In this document: in pieces, positions 2,776 through 23,004 of the stretch
Layout: every line of letters begins with the position of its first letter
Numbering within the stretch: position 1 is the first letter of the stretch
Notes under the pieces: generated by a model
Seen by the model: only the letters and a program-made list of their open reading frames with translations
The model's database searches: none
What the model was told of the DNA's origin: nothing
NCBI RefSeq assembly: GCF_900105455.1
Contig: NZ_FNSF01000002.1
Span: forward strand, 489,501 to 553,500
DNA from: Tenacibaculum sp. MAR_2009_124
Lineage (GTDB): Bacteria; Bacteroidota; Bacteroidia; Flavobacteriales; Flavobacteriaceae
Length of the DNA: 64,000 bases
Reading direction: 5' to 3'
Program-made: the position numbers and the translations under genes

Positions 2776-3084
2776 ATGAAGAAGTTTAAAATCAAATCAG
2801 GAGATACTGTTAAAGTTATCGCTGGAGACCACAAGGGGGCTGAAGGTAAAGTATTAAGTATACTTAAAGATACGGACAGACTAGTAGTTGAAGGGGTTAA
2901 TATGGTTTCTAAGCATACTAAACCTAGTGCTACTAATCCGCAAGGAGGTATCGTAAAAAAAGAAGCTTCATTACACATTTCTAACGTTGCACTTGTTGAA
3001 GACGGTGAAACAGTTAGAGTAGGTTACAGAGTTGATGGAGATAAGAAGGTAAGATTTTCAAAGAAATCAGATAAAGCAATATAA
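2776..3084 (+). CDS. rplX: 50S ribosomal protein L24
   Basis: L24 is an assembly-initiator protein of the large subunit. The 102-aa product has the N-terminal KOW motif ([20 protein letters not shown]). The family stretch [20 protein letters not shown] and a C-terminal basic segment follow. The stop is 2 nt before the rplE start, which suggests coupled translation. Confidence 0.97.
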
Positions 3085-3086
3085 CC

Positions 3087-3635
3087 ATGAGTTACGTACC
3101 AAGATTAAAAGAGGAGTACAAGAGCAAAGTTGTAAAAGCTCTTACTGAAGAATTCGGTTATAACAATCTAATGCAAGTGCCAAAATTACAAAAAATCGTT
3201 GTAAGCAAAGGGGTAGGTGCAGCTATAGCTGATAAGAAATTAATTGAATATGCTATTGAGGAATTGACTACAATTACTGGGCAGAAAGCAGTTTCAACTA
3301 TATCTAAAAAAGATGTAGCAAACTTCAAACTACGTAAAGGAATGCCTATTGGAGCAAAGGTTACGTTAAGAGGTAATGTTATGTACGAGTTTTTAGATCG
3401 TTTAGTCACTGCTTCTTTACCGCGTGTTAGAGATTTCAACGGTATAGCTAATGGTTTTGATGGTAGAGGTAATTATAATTTAGGAATTACTGAACAAATC
3501 ATTTTCCCAGAAATTAATATTGATCAAGTGAAAAAAATTAGTGGAATGGATATTACATTTGTAACATCTGCAGGAACTGATAAAGAAGCGAAATCATTAT
3601 TAGCAGAATTAGGATTACCATTTAAAAAGAATTAA
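3087..3635 (+). CDS. rplE: 50S ribosomal protein L5
   Basis: L5 binds 5S rRNA and forms an inter-subunit bridge near the P-site tRNA. The 182-residue product contains [16 protein letters not shown] near the N terminus. It also has the diagnostic [20 protein letters not shown] and [19 protein letters not shown] stretches, and is full length. It lies 2 nt after rplX and 4 nt before rpsN. Confidence 0.98.
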
Positions 3636-3639
3636 TAAG

Positions 3640-3909
3640 ATGGCTAAAGAATCAATGAAAGCGCGTGAGCGCAAAAGAGCTAAAACGGTAGAGAAATACG
3701 CTGAAAAGAGAAAAGCTTTGAAAGAAGCTGGAGACTATGAAGGCTTACAAAAGTTACCGAAAAATGCTTCACCGGTTAGAAAGCATAACCGTTGTAAATT
3801 AACTGGACGTCCAAAAGGATATATGCGTCAGTTTGGTATTTCACGTGTAACTTTCCGTGAAATGGCGAACCAAGGGTTAATTCCTGGAGTTAAGAAAGCA
3901 AGCTGGTAA
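3640..3909 (+). CDS. rpsN: 30S ribosomal protein S14
   Basis: S14 completes the head of the small subunit. At 89 aa, without the paired CxxC motifs of the zinc form, this is the longer zinc-independent type. Diagnostic residues are [20 protein letters not shown] and the C terminus [11 protein letters not shown]. It is the last gene before the unusual break in the cluster: an intrinsic terminator follows within about 25 nt, and rpsH does not appear until 6508. Confidence 0.98.
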
Positions 3910-3932
3910 AATATTTATTTTATTATATAAAA

Positions 3933-3966
3933 AAGGTCATACTGTTAAAGTATGGCCTTTTTGTTT
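3933..3966 (+). terminator. Intrinsic terminator after rpsN
   Basis: An 8-bp stem (GGTCATAC with GTATGGCC, one G-T pair) around a loop of about 6 nt is followed by TTTTTGTTTT. It follows the rpsN stop by about 23 nt. It would end transcription inside what is normally one continuous spc operon. Confidence 0.8.
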
Positions 3967-4011
3967 TGTAACGATTAAACAATAATTGACATTTCGTATG
4001 TTTGAGGACAT

Positions 4012-4872
4012 ATGAAAAACAATATTACGACATACTTAAACAGAGTGTATCCATATTACTATAATTTAAGAAACACGATAATTATAGGGGGATTAGTTTT
4101 GTTGTTGTCTGTTTGTTTTAGCATTTTTTTTGAGCCGTTTGAAGTTAATCAAGGTGAACTTAAGTTTAGTTTTTTTCTGGTTTCTTTAATACATTCTTTG
4201 TTGTCGCTTGTAGTTTTTTTTATACTAGTATTGGTTTTACAATTATTCAGAACTAATGGTAAAACATGGAGAATAAAAGATGAATTTGGATTCTTATTGA
4301 CTTTAATAATAATAATAGGAGTGTTTCAGTTTTTAATACGAGATTTTATTTATGATAAAGATGATAATTGGTCTTTAAGATATTTATACGAGGAAGTTAG
4401 AAATACAATCTTAGTAGGAGGTCTTTTAATTTTTATAATTACGTCTATTAATGCTAAAAGATTAAATTTAAAAAAGGAGTCAAAGGAAAAAGAGGGGATG
4501 TTTAGTAAGGACTCTATTCCTTTTGTATCAAATGAAATAGCAATAAAAACACAAGTAAGGTTAGATGATTTTGTTTTAAATATTAATGAGTTTGTTTGCG
4601 CCAAGTCGGATAAAAATTATGTAAAGATTGTTCTAAATAATGATGTAATGTTAAAAAGAATGACCATAAAGAGTTTAGAGGATCAATTGTGTTCCTATAA
4701 ATTTATCTTTAGAACTCATCGTTCATTTATTTTAAATCTAAAAGTAGTCCAATCAGTAGAAAGAAGCTCACAAGGCTATAAAGTTTTAATTAGAAATTTT
4801 AAGGAAATAGTACCCGTTTCTCGAGCAATGATTATTGAATTTGATAAGAAGAATAGAACCATTAATAATTAA
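4012..4872 (+). CDS. Membrane-anchored LytTR-family transcriptional regulator
   Basis: A 286-residue predicted DNA-binding regulator held in the inner membrane. The N-terminal half has four hydrophobic segments (about residues 24-46, 53-79, 92-111 and 131-146), and no receiver domain is visible. A linker leads to a C-terminal LytTR domain (about residues 183-280) with CAKSDKNYVKIVL and FIFRTHRSFILNL, as in LytR/AgrA-type regulators. The gene sits inside the ribosomal cluster, after a terminator, and is followed by an acyltransferase whose upstream region carries a perfect inverted repeat, so that gene is its likely target. The ligand or signal is unknown. Confidence 0.85.
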   Translation: MKNNITTYLNRVYPYYYNLRNTIIIGGLVLLLSVCFSIFFEPFEVNQGELKFSFFLVSLIHSLLSLVVFFILVLVLQLFRTNGKTWRIKDEFGFLLTLIIIIGVFQFLIRDFIYDKDDNWSLRYLYEEVRNTILVGGLLIFIITSINAKRLNLKKESKEKEGMFSKDSIPFVSNEIAIKTQVRLDDFVLNINEFVCAKSDKNYVKIVLNNDVMLKRMTIKSLEDQLCSYKFIFRTHRSFILNLKVVQSVERSSQGYKVLIRNFKEIVPVSRAMIIEFDKKNRTINN

Positions 4873-4994
4873 TTTATACTGTTAATAATCAAATTTAGTT
4901 TGTAATTAGGGCTATATTTATAATCTAATTATAGTAAGAGGAACTATATATTCTTGGATTTTTAGAGCTACTTGATATTAGTAACATATTTTAT

Positions 4995-5013
4995 GCTATT
5001 TGTCCCAAATAGC
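4995..5013. promoter_or_regulatory. Candidate operator: perfect inverted repeat upstream of the acyltransferase
   Basis: GCTATTTG-TCC-CAAATAGC is a perfect 8-bp inverted repeat with a 3-nt spacer. A second, partly related block (GGGCTAAACGG) lies about 10 nt downstream, and a -7-like TATTTTCG sits at 5046-5053. No T-run follows, so this is not a terminator. Binding by the adjacent LytTR protein is inferred from position only. Confidence 0.45.
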
Positions 5014-5045
5014 CGTAATACTGGGCTAAACGGATTTCATGTATC

Positions 5046-5053
5046 TATTTTCG
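5046..5053 (+). promoter_or_regulatory. Candidate -7 element for the acyltransferase gene
   Basis: TATTTTCG is one mismatch from the Bacteroidota -7 consensus TAnnTTTG and lies 24 nt before the start codon at 5077. No clear TTG -33 element is present at the usual distance. That would fit a promoter needing an activator bound at the upstream inverted repeat. Confidence 0.4.
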
Positions 5054-5076
5054 TAAAAACTATTTAATTTTTTAAA

Positions 5077-6201
5077 ATGGATAAAATAAGAAGGTACGAT
5101 TTGGATTGGTTACGTGTAATTTCGGTTTTTGCGGTTTTTTTACATCATGTATTAATGCCTTTTAATGGAGATGGATTTCATATTATAAATGAAGAATCGA
5201 GTAAAGTATTAGATGACACTATGGTGTATTTTGAACAGTTTAGATTACCCTTGTTGTTTTTGGTATCTGGAATAGGAACAGTGTATGCGTTTTCTAAGAG
5301 GAACTGGTTGAGTTTTATGAAAGAGCGAAGTAAAAGATTGTTAATTCCATTGATTTTTGGAGTATTGGTATTAGTACCGCCTCAAATTTATTTCGAATTC
5401 TTGAATGAGCACGAAAGTTTTCTTATTGAATATCCAACTATCATGAGTAAACTGGAAGTCAATCATCTTTGGTTTATTGAGAATCTTTTTCTGATGTCTT
5501 TGGTTTTTATTCCATTTATAGTTTTTTTTAATTCGAATAGAAGTGCTAAAATAAAGCGGTACATACGGAAAGTAACAACTAACTACGGCTTGTTTTTATG
5601 GGTAACTTTGTTAATAGTAATAAGGGTTATAACTAAACATTATTTTCCAAGTGATTCTAAAAGTTTCACGAATCCCTCGACAACGTTATACTACAGTTTC
5701 TTTTATGCAAGTGGAATAGTTATTTCAAGTACTAAGAGCTTATGGAAGGTGCTATTGAAAAATAGGAGGAGAAATTTAATTATATCATTATTGTGCAGTT
5801 TAATTTTCTATGGTTATTATTATATTCCTAATGAGTATGTTTCTCCTTATTTTTCTTTAACAACGAGATGGCACTTGTGGTATATTGCCTGTTCTTTAGT
5901 TTCTTGGTCTGTCATAATATGTTGTTTAGGGTATGGGCAAATATTTTTAAATAAAAGAAGTAAATTATTATATAAACTTAACGAAGCTGTATATCCTTTC
6001 TATATGCTACATCAAACGGTAATAATTGCTATTGGATATTATGTTTTAAAAATTAAAGCAGATATATCGGTAAAGATAGTTGTTTTAAGTATTAGCTCAT
6101 TCTTTGTAATAACAGCAATTTATTTATTGTGTGTATATCCGTTTAAATGGATGCGTTTTTTATTTGGTATGAAAGAAAAAAAAACAGTGCTAAAAAACTA
6201 A
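5077..6201 (+). CDS. Membrane acyltransferase (acyltransferase 3 / OafA-like family)
   Basis: A polytopic 374-residue membrane protein. The N terminus RYDLDWLRVISVFAVFLHH holds the conserved Arg and catalytic-type His region of acyltransferase 3 proteins, which move acetyl or other acyl groups onto sugars or lipids at the membrane. About ten hydrophobic segments follow, with LNEAVYPFYMLHQTVII near the C terminus, another family hallmark. It follows the LytTR gene by 204 nt with its own candidate promoter and operator. The acceptor substrate cannot be told from sequence. Its place between rpsN and rpsH is abnormal and suggests insertion or rearrangement. Confidence 0.85.
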   Translation: MDKIRRYDLDWLRVISVFAVFLHHVLMPFNGDGFHIINEESSKVLDDTMVYFEQFRLPLLFLVSGIGTVYAFSKRNWLSFMKERSKRLLIPLIFGVLVLVPPQIYFEFLNEHESFLIEYPTIMSKLEVNHLWFIENLFLMSLVFIPFIVFFNSNRSAKIKRYIRKVTTNYGLFLWVTLLIVIRVITKHYFPSDSKSFTNPSTTLYYSFFYASGIVISSTKSLWKVLLKNRRRNLIISLLCSLIFYGYYYIPNEYVSPYFSLTTRWHLWYIACSLVSWSVIICCLGYGQIFLNKRSKLLYKLNEAVYPFYMLHQTVIIAIGYYVLKIKADISVKIVVLSISSFFVITAIYLLCVYPFKWMRFLFGMKEKKTVLKN

Positions 6202-6507
6202 AAATATAGCATGCTTGATTGTGTTCAAGATTTGTACCTATGTAATACGAATTGACAATAAATTAATAGTCAAACTGATAATTGGTAAAAGCCTTTTTTT
6301 TTCGAAAACTTTATGTATATTTGCACTCTGTTTTTTATGGGGTAATTACGCCTTGTAATGAAATTTTATGTAAAAAGGTTTCATTTTTTAGAGCATAATT
6401 GTCATAAAAACAAAAAATAAATATTAACTGGTTTCAGGTTTAGTAATTACGATAAGTCGTAGGTACTATAGAAATTACTAAAAACCAAAACCGCAAATTA
6501 ATTAATT
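6202..6507 (+). promoter_or_regulatory. Promoter and structured leader of the second ribosomal half-operon
   Basis: This 306-nt gap holds no gene. TATATTTG at 6316-6323 matches the flavobacterial -7 element, though I see no good TTG at -33. That would give an rpsH leader of roughly 180 nt. Within it, TTTAGTAATT (6439-6448) pairs perfectly with AATTACTAAA (6473-6482), and the loop contains a small hairpin (ACGA/TCGT). The stem ends about 25 nt before the rpsH start. It could be an autoregulatory r-protein site; that is inference. Confidence 0.5.
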
Positions 6508-6906
6508 ATGTACACAGATCCAATCGCGGATTTTCTAACTCGAGTGAGAAATGCAATCGGTGCAGGTCACAGAGTTGTTGAGGTTCCTGCTTCAAAGCTG
6601 AAGAAGGAGATGACCAAAATTTTGTTCGATCAAGGGTACATTTTAAGTTATCAATTCAATGATGAATCTGTACAAGGTTCAATCAAGATAGCTTTAAAGT
6701 ACGACAGATCAACAAAGGAGTCAGTTATCAGAAAGATTCAAAGAGTTTCAACGCCAGGTTTACGTAAGTATGTGGGAGCTAAAGAAATGCCTAGAGTTTT
6801 AAACGGTTTAGGTATTGCTATTGTGTCAACATCGAGAGGTGTAATGACTAACAAGAAAGCTCGTCAAGAAAACGTAGGGGGAGAAGTATTATGTTACGTT
6901 TACTAA
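6508..6906 (+). CDS. rpsH: 30S ribosomal protein S8
   Basis: S8 binds the central domain of 16S rRNA; in E. coli it also represses the spc operon. The 132-aa product starts MYTDPIADFLTRVRNAIGAG and ends with the conserved GIAIVSTSRGVMTNKKARQ plus GGEVLCYVY, so it is complete. It normally follows rpsN directly, but here about 2.6 kb of non-ribosomal DNA intervenes. A long leader with a hairpin precedes it. Confidence 0.98.
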   Translation: MYTDPIADFLTRVRNAIGAGHRVVEVPASKLKKEMTKILFDQGYILSYQFNDESVQGSIKIALKYDRSTKESVIRKIQRVSTPGLRKYVGAKEMPRVLNGLGIAIVSTSRGVMTNKKARQENVGGEVLCYVY

Positions 6907-11552: not shown

Positions 11553-11602
11553 AGCAGGAGAACGATTATCGAAGGAATACGCCTTAATTCATAATCCCTG
11601 CT
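11553..11602 (+). ncRNA. Candidate S4 ribosomal-protein leader (rpsD leader RNA)
   Basis: The 115-nt rpsK-rpsD gap contains a nested hairpin. AGCAGG (11553-11558) pairs with CCTGCT (11597-11602), GATTAT (11564-11569) pairs with ATAATC (11591-11596), and an apical AAGG/CCTT pair closes the top. The stem ends 13 nt before the rpsD start, where it could affect initiation. S4 represses its own synthesis through leader RNAs in several phyla, and leader candidates of this kind have been proposed in Bacteroidota. Assignment to a named family is not verified. Confidence 0.6.
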
Positions 11603-22838: not shown

Positions 22839-22846
22839 TACTTGTA

Positions 22847-22926
22847 AACTTTAGGAGTAGCTAGATTACTAGCTTGAGAAATATCCTTAGAACCTGATAT
22901 GGTTAACACCAACGTAGGGAAAAGTT
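22847..22926 (+). ncRNA. TPP riboswitch (THI element)
   Basis: The conserved TPP aptamer elements occur in order: the P3-side segment ending GCTTGAGA (consensus GCTGAGA), CCTTAGAACCTGAT (consensus CCTTTGAACCTGAT), GGTTAACACCAACGTAGGGAA for the P4/P5 junction, and a closing P1 helix AACTT/AAGTT. It lies about 80 nt upstream of thiS and heads the complete thi operon. I see no classic terminator between aptamer and thiS, so control is more likely at translation; that part is inference. Confidence 0.93.
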
Positions 22927-23004
22927 GTGAAGATAAACTCACTCAAATAAATAGGTTGAATAAAATCTATTTAACTTCTATAGTTTGCTTAAAATATTCA
23001 TTCA

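Follow-up and report, generated by a model that had tools for sequence, protein, structure and literature searches.

In Tenacibaculum sp. MAR_2009_124 the spc operon of ribosomal protein genes is divided between rpsN and rpsH, and its distal half, which begins with rpsH, carries a promoter and a leader of its own. The division lies within 64,000 nucleotides (nt) of contig NZ_FNSF01000002.1 (positions 489,501 to 553,500 of the forward strand); this whole stretch is called the window here, and coordinates refer to its plus strand unless another contig is named. The core of the leader appears from its sequence to be a copy of helix 21 of 16S ribosomal RNA (rRNA), the site of ribosomal protein S8, the product of rpsH. 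It is quite probable that, owing to this S8-mimicking leader, distal spc is a self-contained unit and the seam in front of it a harmless landing site.

Organisation of the divided spc operon

The proximal part of the cluster in the window reads rpsS–rplV–rpsC–rplP–rpmC–rpsQ–rplN–rplX–rplE–rpsN and is followed by a terminator, a LytTR gene, an acyltransferase gene, the promoter and the leader, downstream of which the distal half runs rpsH–rplF–...–secY–infA–rpsM–rpsK–rpsD. The ribosomal gene names were read from the open reading frames, except for rplE, rpsN and rpsH. The last proximal gene, rpsN (uS14; 3640–3909; PF00253, E 3.5e-28), precedes an intrinsic terminator located by the terminator scan at 3930–3962, a 14-pair hairpin with a T-rich tail. 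The two cargo genes encode a LytTR-domain regulator (4012–4872; PF04397 at residues 187–279, E 6.5e-15) and a membrane acyltransferase of the PF01757 family (5077–6201; E 1.8e-30). Beyond them lie the −7 element of a Bacteroidota-type rpsH promoter, TATATTTG (6316–6323), recognised by motif and conservation, a leader of 184 nt (6324–6507) and rpsH itself (uS8; 6508–6906; PF00410, E 1.3e-50), the first gene of the distal half. At the thresholds used, the whole genome (5.5 Mb, 8 contigs) holds a single rpsN and a single rpsH.

An earlier note, made from the letters of the window, had described the split by a LytTR regulator and a membrane acyltransferase, and the Pfam matches and coordinates confirm it. 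The terminator that the note placed behind rpsN was recovered by the scan, and the promoter-like element and long leader that it saw before rpsH correspond to the −7 element and the 184-nt leader. What the note missed is that the last part of this leader resembles a conserved S8 site.

The rpsH leader resembles the S8 site of 16S rRNA

The last 80 nt before rpsH hold a conserved hairpin, a candidate S8 leader, which ends 15 nt upstream of the start codon. In the window it spans 6430–6492 (GGUUU-C-A-GG-UUU...AAA-AA-CC-AAAACC) and was placed by a match to the covariance model R1 at 6414–6510. The structure comes from an alignment (A2) of 24 Flavobacteriaceae sequences from other genera, none from the window's genus; the window had been misplaced in a first alignment and was kept out of the model alignment. 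The A2 hairpin has 12 pairs, eight of them with changes on both sides. Cells changed on both sides number 39, against 10.1 ± 3.4 in shuffles, and 0 of 500 shuffles did as well on all five measures; the share of cells that pair is 91.7%, and it falls to 56.9% or less when the partners are slid by one to three columns.

Within the hairpin lies a core which, in E. coli numbering checked against the available parts of PMC4176348, consists of a free A595, a paired 596–644, the pair G597–C643, a two-base bulge at 641–642 with A642, and the pair U598–A640. In the window A595 falls at 6436, G597 at 6438, U598 at 6439, A640 at 6482, A642 at 6484 and C643 at 6485. A595, A642, G597–C643 and U598–A640 are invariant in 58 aligned leaders (24/24 in A2 and 34/34 from the window's genus), while 596–644 is GC or AU in 22 of the 24 (A–C in the other two) and GC in all 34. 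In the organism's own 16S rRNA the core of helix 21 reads AAGUC..GAUACU. A second conserved structure considered for the leader's first 100 nt in Tenacibaculum was dropped, its consensus fold reaching only −3.34 kcal/mol with one covarying pair.

R1, built from A2, scores 60.9 bits in the window, the genome's only listed match at E ≤ 1. It matches the leader in 82 of the 82 sources searched (genome G327 being included twice), with one extra weak match (E 0.09) in locus L090. Across the family it is found in 161 of 249 Flavobacteriaceae genomes, with one match each among the matches listed, and the end of the match falls on the rpsH start codon in all 112 of these 161 that appear in both the rpsH and the R1 lists and were compared. 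Beyond the family, at the level of the order, R1 gives no match below E 0.03. The spacers of classes A to C (defined in the next section) and the spacers of 60–110 base pairs (bp) of most other genera viewed share one terminal motif before rpsH. Among distinct spacers, a strict search found the core in 138 of the 155 that exceed 40 bp and in 0 of the 4 shorter ones; the organism's own 16S rRNA served as positive control, and 13 of 1162 tiles of 110 nt from the window matched. In several of the spacers missed the motif is present, but below the core it has more mismatches.

In a second family (f5), represented by 30 of its 39 genomes with S8, the spacers are longer and the core is present in 25 of 30 regions upstream of rpsH. 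Shuffles of whole spacers, the fair control here in that pair counts in rows selected for pairing are circular, predict 1.05 over the 31 regions tested, the 31st being L231 of family f3, which failed. The 596–644 pair is A–U in 25/25 of these cores, and 641 is U, as in 16S rRNA, in 13 and A in 12; the helix flanking the core differs from that of the Flavobacteriaceae leader. Because the core recurs on different helices, this family provides the best evidence for S8 as the ligand. In 19 loci from outside the Flavobacteriaceae, the motif was seen by eye in two of f5 and in L231, the last of which the strict core search rejected; 15 of the 19 have spacers of at most 37 bp. L241, a locus outside the family with an 87-bp spacer, was judged by eye.

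Several observations weigh against this reading of the leader. At position 641, 23/24 and 32/34 leaders have A; 16S rRNA has U there, in a triple with G597–C643 that an A may or may not support. The 594–645 pair is non-standard in 14/24 and 29/34, and the spacer of L186, which lies outside the alignments, has U at 595 by eye. In the window's genus alone, neither the pairs changed on both sides (three) nor the further pair types exceed shuffles; changed cells (26 against 10.4 in shuffles) and the covariation score are above them, and all covariation counts disregard the relatedness of the sequences. Under strict filters R1 has no match in 88 of the 249 family genomes (61 of 210 good ones), and the leader is absent from four loci with spacers of 23–27 bp; the putative switch is therefore not essential. 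L186 also lacks the promoter and branches in the tree described below between Flavicella and the window's genus, so that a single gain of the promoter is not certain.

Promoter and terminator at the rpsN–rpsH junction

The window's genus (Polaribacter/Tenacibaculum) was sampled with 97 genomes, 77 of which have rpsN and rpsH on one contig; in the remaining 20 the genes lie on separate contigs (G326 and G266), only rpsH is present (G334) or no rpsH passes the threshold (17 genomes). The 77 spacers comprise two short ones (93 and 108 bp), which lack the promoter, 55 of class A (153–172 bp), 13 of class B (342–565 bp) and seven of class C, which contain an insertion (1680, 2438, 2555, 2601, 3165, 4676 and 8494 bp). 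Among the named records, taken as the best 80, class A comes mainly from Polaribacter and classes B and C from Tenacibaculum. In a tree of rpsN and rpsH (106 sequences), classes B and C form one clade with support of 0.962, and the window lies within it; by sequence, the source organism belongs to the Tenacibaculum part of the genus. The tree left out loci with incomplete rpsN or rpsH matches, those with S8 below 83.5% identity (except L016), L013, L121 and duplicates. L121 (G308:C8) is a 3-kilobase (kb) contig with a second S8 gene, 74% identical, and its own rpsN, and is possibly a contaminant of the assembly.

The motif TAnnTTTG, which we take to be the −7 element of Bacteroidota promoters, occurs 110–230 nt before rpsH in 73/73 distinct class A, 19/19 class B, 8/8 class C and 2/2 Flavicella spacers, duplicate spacers being excluded from these counts. 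Since it stands at a set distance in every distinct spacer of classes A, B and C, its presence is not due to chance; with duplicate records kept, it is found in 86/86 class A and 35/35 class B and C spacers, against 2.2 and 4.8 expected in shuffles. Anywhere within short spacers, it occurs in one of 57 distinct sequences. A sigma-70-type promoter at rpsH was rejected, as the scan listed no site there. The two short spacers of the genus (L115 and L116, in G302 and G328; 93 and 108 bp) have the leader without the promoter, which has perhaps been lost, since both loci sit among class A in the tree.

A terminator-like hairpin follows rpsN in 25/26 class B, 9/9 class C and 3/3 Flavicella records, as well as in G266 and G326; these counts are of records, and some genomes enter twice. 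The sole miss in class B, L089, has an A/T-rich hairpin that fails the G+C rule of the scan. Short spacers have such a hairpin in 3/60 records, and in class A one was called in 71/86. An inverted repeat with a T run surrounds the −7 element in 64 of the 73 distinct class A spacers (for example L010, L053 and L097); a weak terminator perhaps overlaps the promoter there.

The earlier note had proposed that the two halves of the operon are separate transcription units. Sequence comparison supports this, given the conservation of terminator and promoter in Tenacibaculum-type spacers and an assembly in which rpsN and rpsH fall on separate contigs. The same note had offered two explanations, one of them that the insertion was tolerated because a new promoter formed. 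This is not supported: the promoter is present in the insertion-free junctions of 55/55 class A and 13/13 class B genomes, and therefore predates the insertion.

Repeated insertion at one seam

Insertions of 1.7–8.5 kb are present in 7 of 20 assembled Tenacibaculum-type junctions. Among named species, T. skagerrakense has an insert, and T. caenipelagi, T. discolor, T. larymnensis, T. adriaticum and T. piscium are insertion-free. Of the junctions seen between rpsS and rpsD in 17 named Tenacibaculum loci, rpsN–rpsH measures 359–2435 bp (15 loci in which both genes were seen) and none of the others exceeds 237 bp. The same spacer is at most 164 bp in 32 Polaribacter-side loci and at most 263 bp (Flavicella) in 31 others. 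The longest of the remaining junctions are rplP–rpmC in one Polaribacter-side locus (343 bp) and infA–rpsM in other loci (up to 310 bp); as none exceeded 343 bp in the loci compared, kilobase inserts were seen only at the rpsN–rpsH seam. The spacer of L268, in the second-family genome G502, is the longest measured there (677 bp) and perhaps reflects another insertion at the same seam.

The inserts sit downstream of the terminator and upstream of the promoter. Some 60 nt upstream of the −7 element, a block CAATAAnTTAA is found in 8/8 distinct class C spacers and in G326, and in 7/19 distinct class B spacers, and is not present in G266; in the window it falls in CAATAAATTAATAGTCAAACTGATAA (6256–6283), which spacer comparison marks as the right-hand border of the insert. 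Class B spacers, the 565-bp one of T. piscium among them, showed no remnants of insert genes at E ≤ 0.05; the sole match of this search lies behind rpsN in G266. This T. finnmarkense assembly has rpsN and rpsH on different contigs: rpsN is followed by a terminator and by a fragment resembling the insert gene of G327 (44% over 70 residues), and other genes precede rpsH. In a T. finnmarkense record (L152), the 10 kb upstream of rpsH contain no rpsN. Misassembly may be the source of the split halves in this species.

In the sequences compared, insertion is recurrent, not one-off, and has its hot spot between the terminator and the promoter. The earlier note had allowed that the arrangement would be ancestral if most relatives had it; the split appears common to the Tenacibaculum clade and in that sense ancestral, but the particular insert is not shared.

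The inserted genes

At least four different insert contents occur at the seam. The LytTR gene stands there in six carriers (the window, G250, G282, G318, G326 and record L145), beside the acyltransferase gene in five of them; the contig of G326 stops about 250 bp beyond its LytTR match. The insert of G295 encodes an outer-membrane receptor, a histidine kinase and a LytTR response regulator, that of G327 a DUF6973 protein, and that of G339 (L081) a WYL regulator and three genes without a Pfam match. Gene sets with WYL-domain regulators often belong to defence islands. The six LytTR carriers form one clade with the insert-free L148 (support 0.977), and their regulators are about 44–56% identical to that of the window; the insert is old in its clade. 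Two of the carriers have damaged cargo: in-frame stops break the regulator of G318, and the acyltransferase of G282 is split.

The LytTR domain of the window's regulator scores 55.6 bits against a cut-off of 22.6. No receiver domain was found in the protein, LytTR being its only Pfam match and the BtsR model giving 29.1 bits against a cut-off of 246; its N-terminal half reads, by eye, as membrane helices. The acyltransferase scores 72.8 bits against NF003014 (MdoC/OpgC), the nearest NCBIfam model, below the cut-off of 338, and is assigned to the wider PF01757 family only. LytTR regulators have a C-terminal LytTR domain and bind two 9-bp direct repeats, about two helix turns apart, before a neighbouring gene. 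The window pair is alike in its C-terminal LytTR domain and in having repeats before the neighbouring gene, and differs in that no receiver domain was found and that the partner is a PF01757 acyltransferase. A probable LytTR operator of the acyltransferase gene, the direct repeat ATTAGTAAC / ATTTGTCCC with a spacing of 21 bp (4977–5006), came from a repeat search in which 0 of 500 shuffles did as well. Direct repeats 20–21 bp apart occur in 11/11 of the regulator–acyltransferase gaps tested, with a consensus drawn from the same gaps; these are 11 of the 13 pairs known, L041 and L045 being left out. Because of these repeats the pair looks like a self-contained circuit.

The same pair also occurs outside spc, in the window's own genome (L002) and in seven of eight other genomes with a LytTR match; the eighth, L050, has no acyltransferase gene in the stretch examined. 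L002 (C1:613224-614054) is a second regulator–acyltransferase pair, 41% and 31% identical, with the same kind of direct repeat between its genes and with neither rpsN nor rpsH adjacent in the stretch examined.

A model for the divided operon and its alternatives

It seems likely that Flavobacteriales regulate distal spc through an S8-binding leader before rpsH, and that an added promoter has created two self-regulated modules whose seam serves as a landing site and even as a chromosomal breakpoint. According to this model, the leader hairpin, as a mimic of 16S helix 21, would bind free S8 directly before rpsH in many Flavobacteriaceae; the bound hairpin would hinder initiation at rpsH and, by coupling, at the genes after it. 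A promoter precedes the leader in Polaribacter, Tenacibaculum and Flavicella, and Tenacibaculum and Flavicella have in addition a terminator behind rpsN; these signals may have been gained once or more often. The distal half, provided with a promoter and a feedback switch of its own, would in this way have become a complete unit; for that reason the space between terminator and promoter in Tenacibaculum would be a harmless place in which various gene sets can land, here the regulator and acyltransferase pair. In relatives without the promoter, the same leader would act within a long messenger RNA (mRNA). The sequences themselves show the gene order, the terminator, the promoter, the conserved covarying hairpin with its S8-site core and the hot spot; binding of S8, translational repression and the absence of read-through are what we infer from these patterns.

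The hairpin may instead be a ribosomal protein leader with another ligand, such as S14, L6 or another distal product, or a mere stabiliser of the mRNA. This is doubtful. S8 as ligand is itself a deduction, and position 641 departs from 16S rRNA in most Flavobacteriaceae leaders, but the nucleotides important to S8 according to the available parts of PMC4176348 (the A595 triple, G597–C643 and A642) are invariant in the 58 leaders, the same core appears on different helices in the second family, and the hairpin abuts the S8 gene in all 112 genomes compared. The unchanged gene order and strand would also suit a leaky terminator and a region still transcribed as one, with regulator and acyltransferase as passengers in a ribosomal operon. 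We regard this as unlikely in view of the terminator-like hairpin in 9/9 class C and 25/26 class B records, the promoter in 8/8 and 19/19 distinct spacers of these classes, and the T. finnmarkense assembly with its halves on different contigs.

The earlier note's second explanation, that coupling to the regulator had been selected, would have the LytTR protein recruited to control the distal ribosomal genes. The age of the insert, with regulators about 44–56% identical to the window's, is in keeping with this, as is a LytTR-like repeat at about 6230–6258, upstream of the window's promoter, which agrees at 14 of 18 positions, a level that 2 of 300, or 8 of 500, shuffles attained. That repeat, however, is absent near the rpsH promoter of the other five of the six carriers, a better one lies before the acyltransferase gene, L148 of the carrier clade has no insert, and coupling is made unlikely by the cargo genes broken in two relatives, the regulator in G318 and the acyltransferase in G282; we consider recruitment very unlikely. 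Still less credible, and indeed extremely improbable, is an order of events in which insertion came first and a promoter evolved later to rescue rpsH, given the promoter in all insertion-free class A and class B genomes and in Flavicella.

Relation to known systems

In E. coli, the S8 operator at the start of rplE in spc is a helix interrupted by a core like that of 16S helix 21 and lies in the operon that encodes S8, according to the available parts of PMC10931766 and PMC4176348. The leader described here differs in preceding rpsH itself, in another phylum, and in having its own promoter in this clade; a core search of the window's rplX–rplE junction (3000–3200) found no S8 core. Table 1 of PMC7247131 (Eckert and Weinberg 2020), the part of that paper drawn on here, gives leaders of S4, S15 and S16 for Flavobacteria and no S8 leader. 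These leaders, and S4-Flavobacteria of Rfam, are likewise short, covarying and lineage-restricted and stand before the gene of the presumed ligand, whereas the candidate S8 leader has no Rfam match (none at E ≤ 5 in the window or at E ≤ 1 in the loci of seven relatives). Weak minus-strand matches in the window to Thr_leader, SAM-II and Atu_C9 fell below the gathering scores and were taken as chance. No paper on an S8, uS8 or rpsH leader was found in the open-access literature, most subscription journals lying outside the search. As neither Rfam, that table nor this search contains it, the leader is read as a putative uncatalogued S8 feedback site.

The 2024 review PMC10931766 states, in its available sections, that spc regulation in B. 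subtilis or in others outside named gamma-proteobacteria is unknown. A leader with an S8-site core in at least two families would offer Flavobacteriales a direct and testable answer. It would also explain why a conserved gene order breaks at one point, the downstream piece carrying its own promoter and feedback; if the model is true, feedback at rpsH instead of rplE, together with a promoter, turned a nearly unbreakable operon into two modules. The insertions into ribosomal clusters chosen for analysis in an earlier study are likewise small gene sets inside an otherwise fixed cluster, and lie between operons (rpoBC–str, str–S10) or at rplL–rsmC, in Gammaproteobacteria and Bacilli; here, by contrast, the same point inside spc has been struck repeatedly in one genus.

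Two further RNA elements were recognised in the window: the S4-Flavobacteria leader of Rfam upstream of rpsD (11564–11596, 47.8 bits) and a TPP riboswitch (22843–22937, 69.5 bits).

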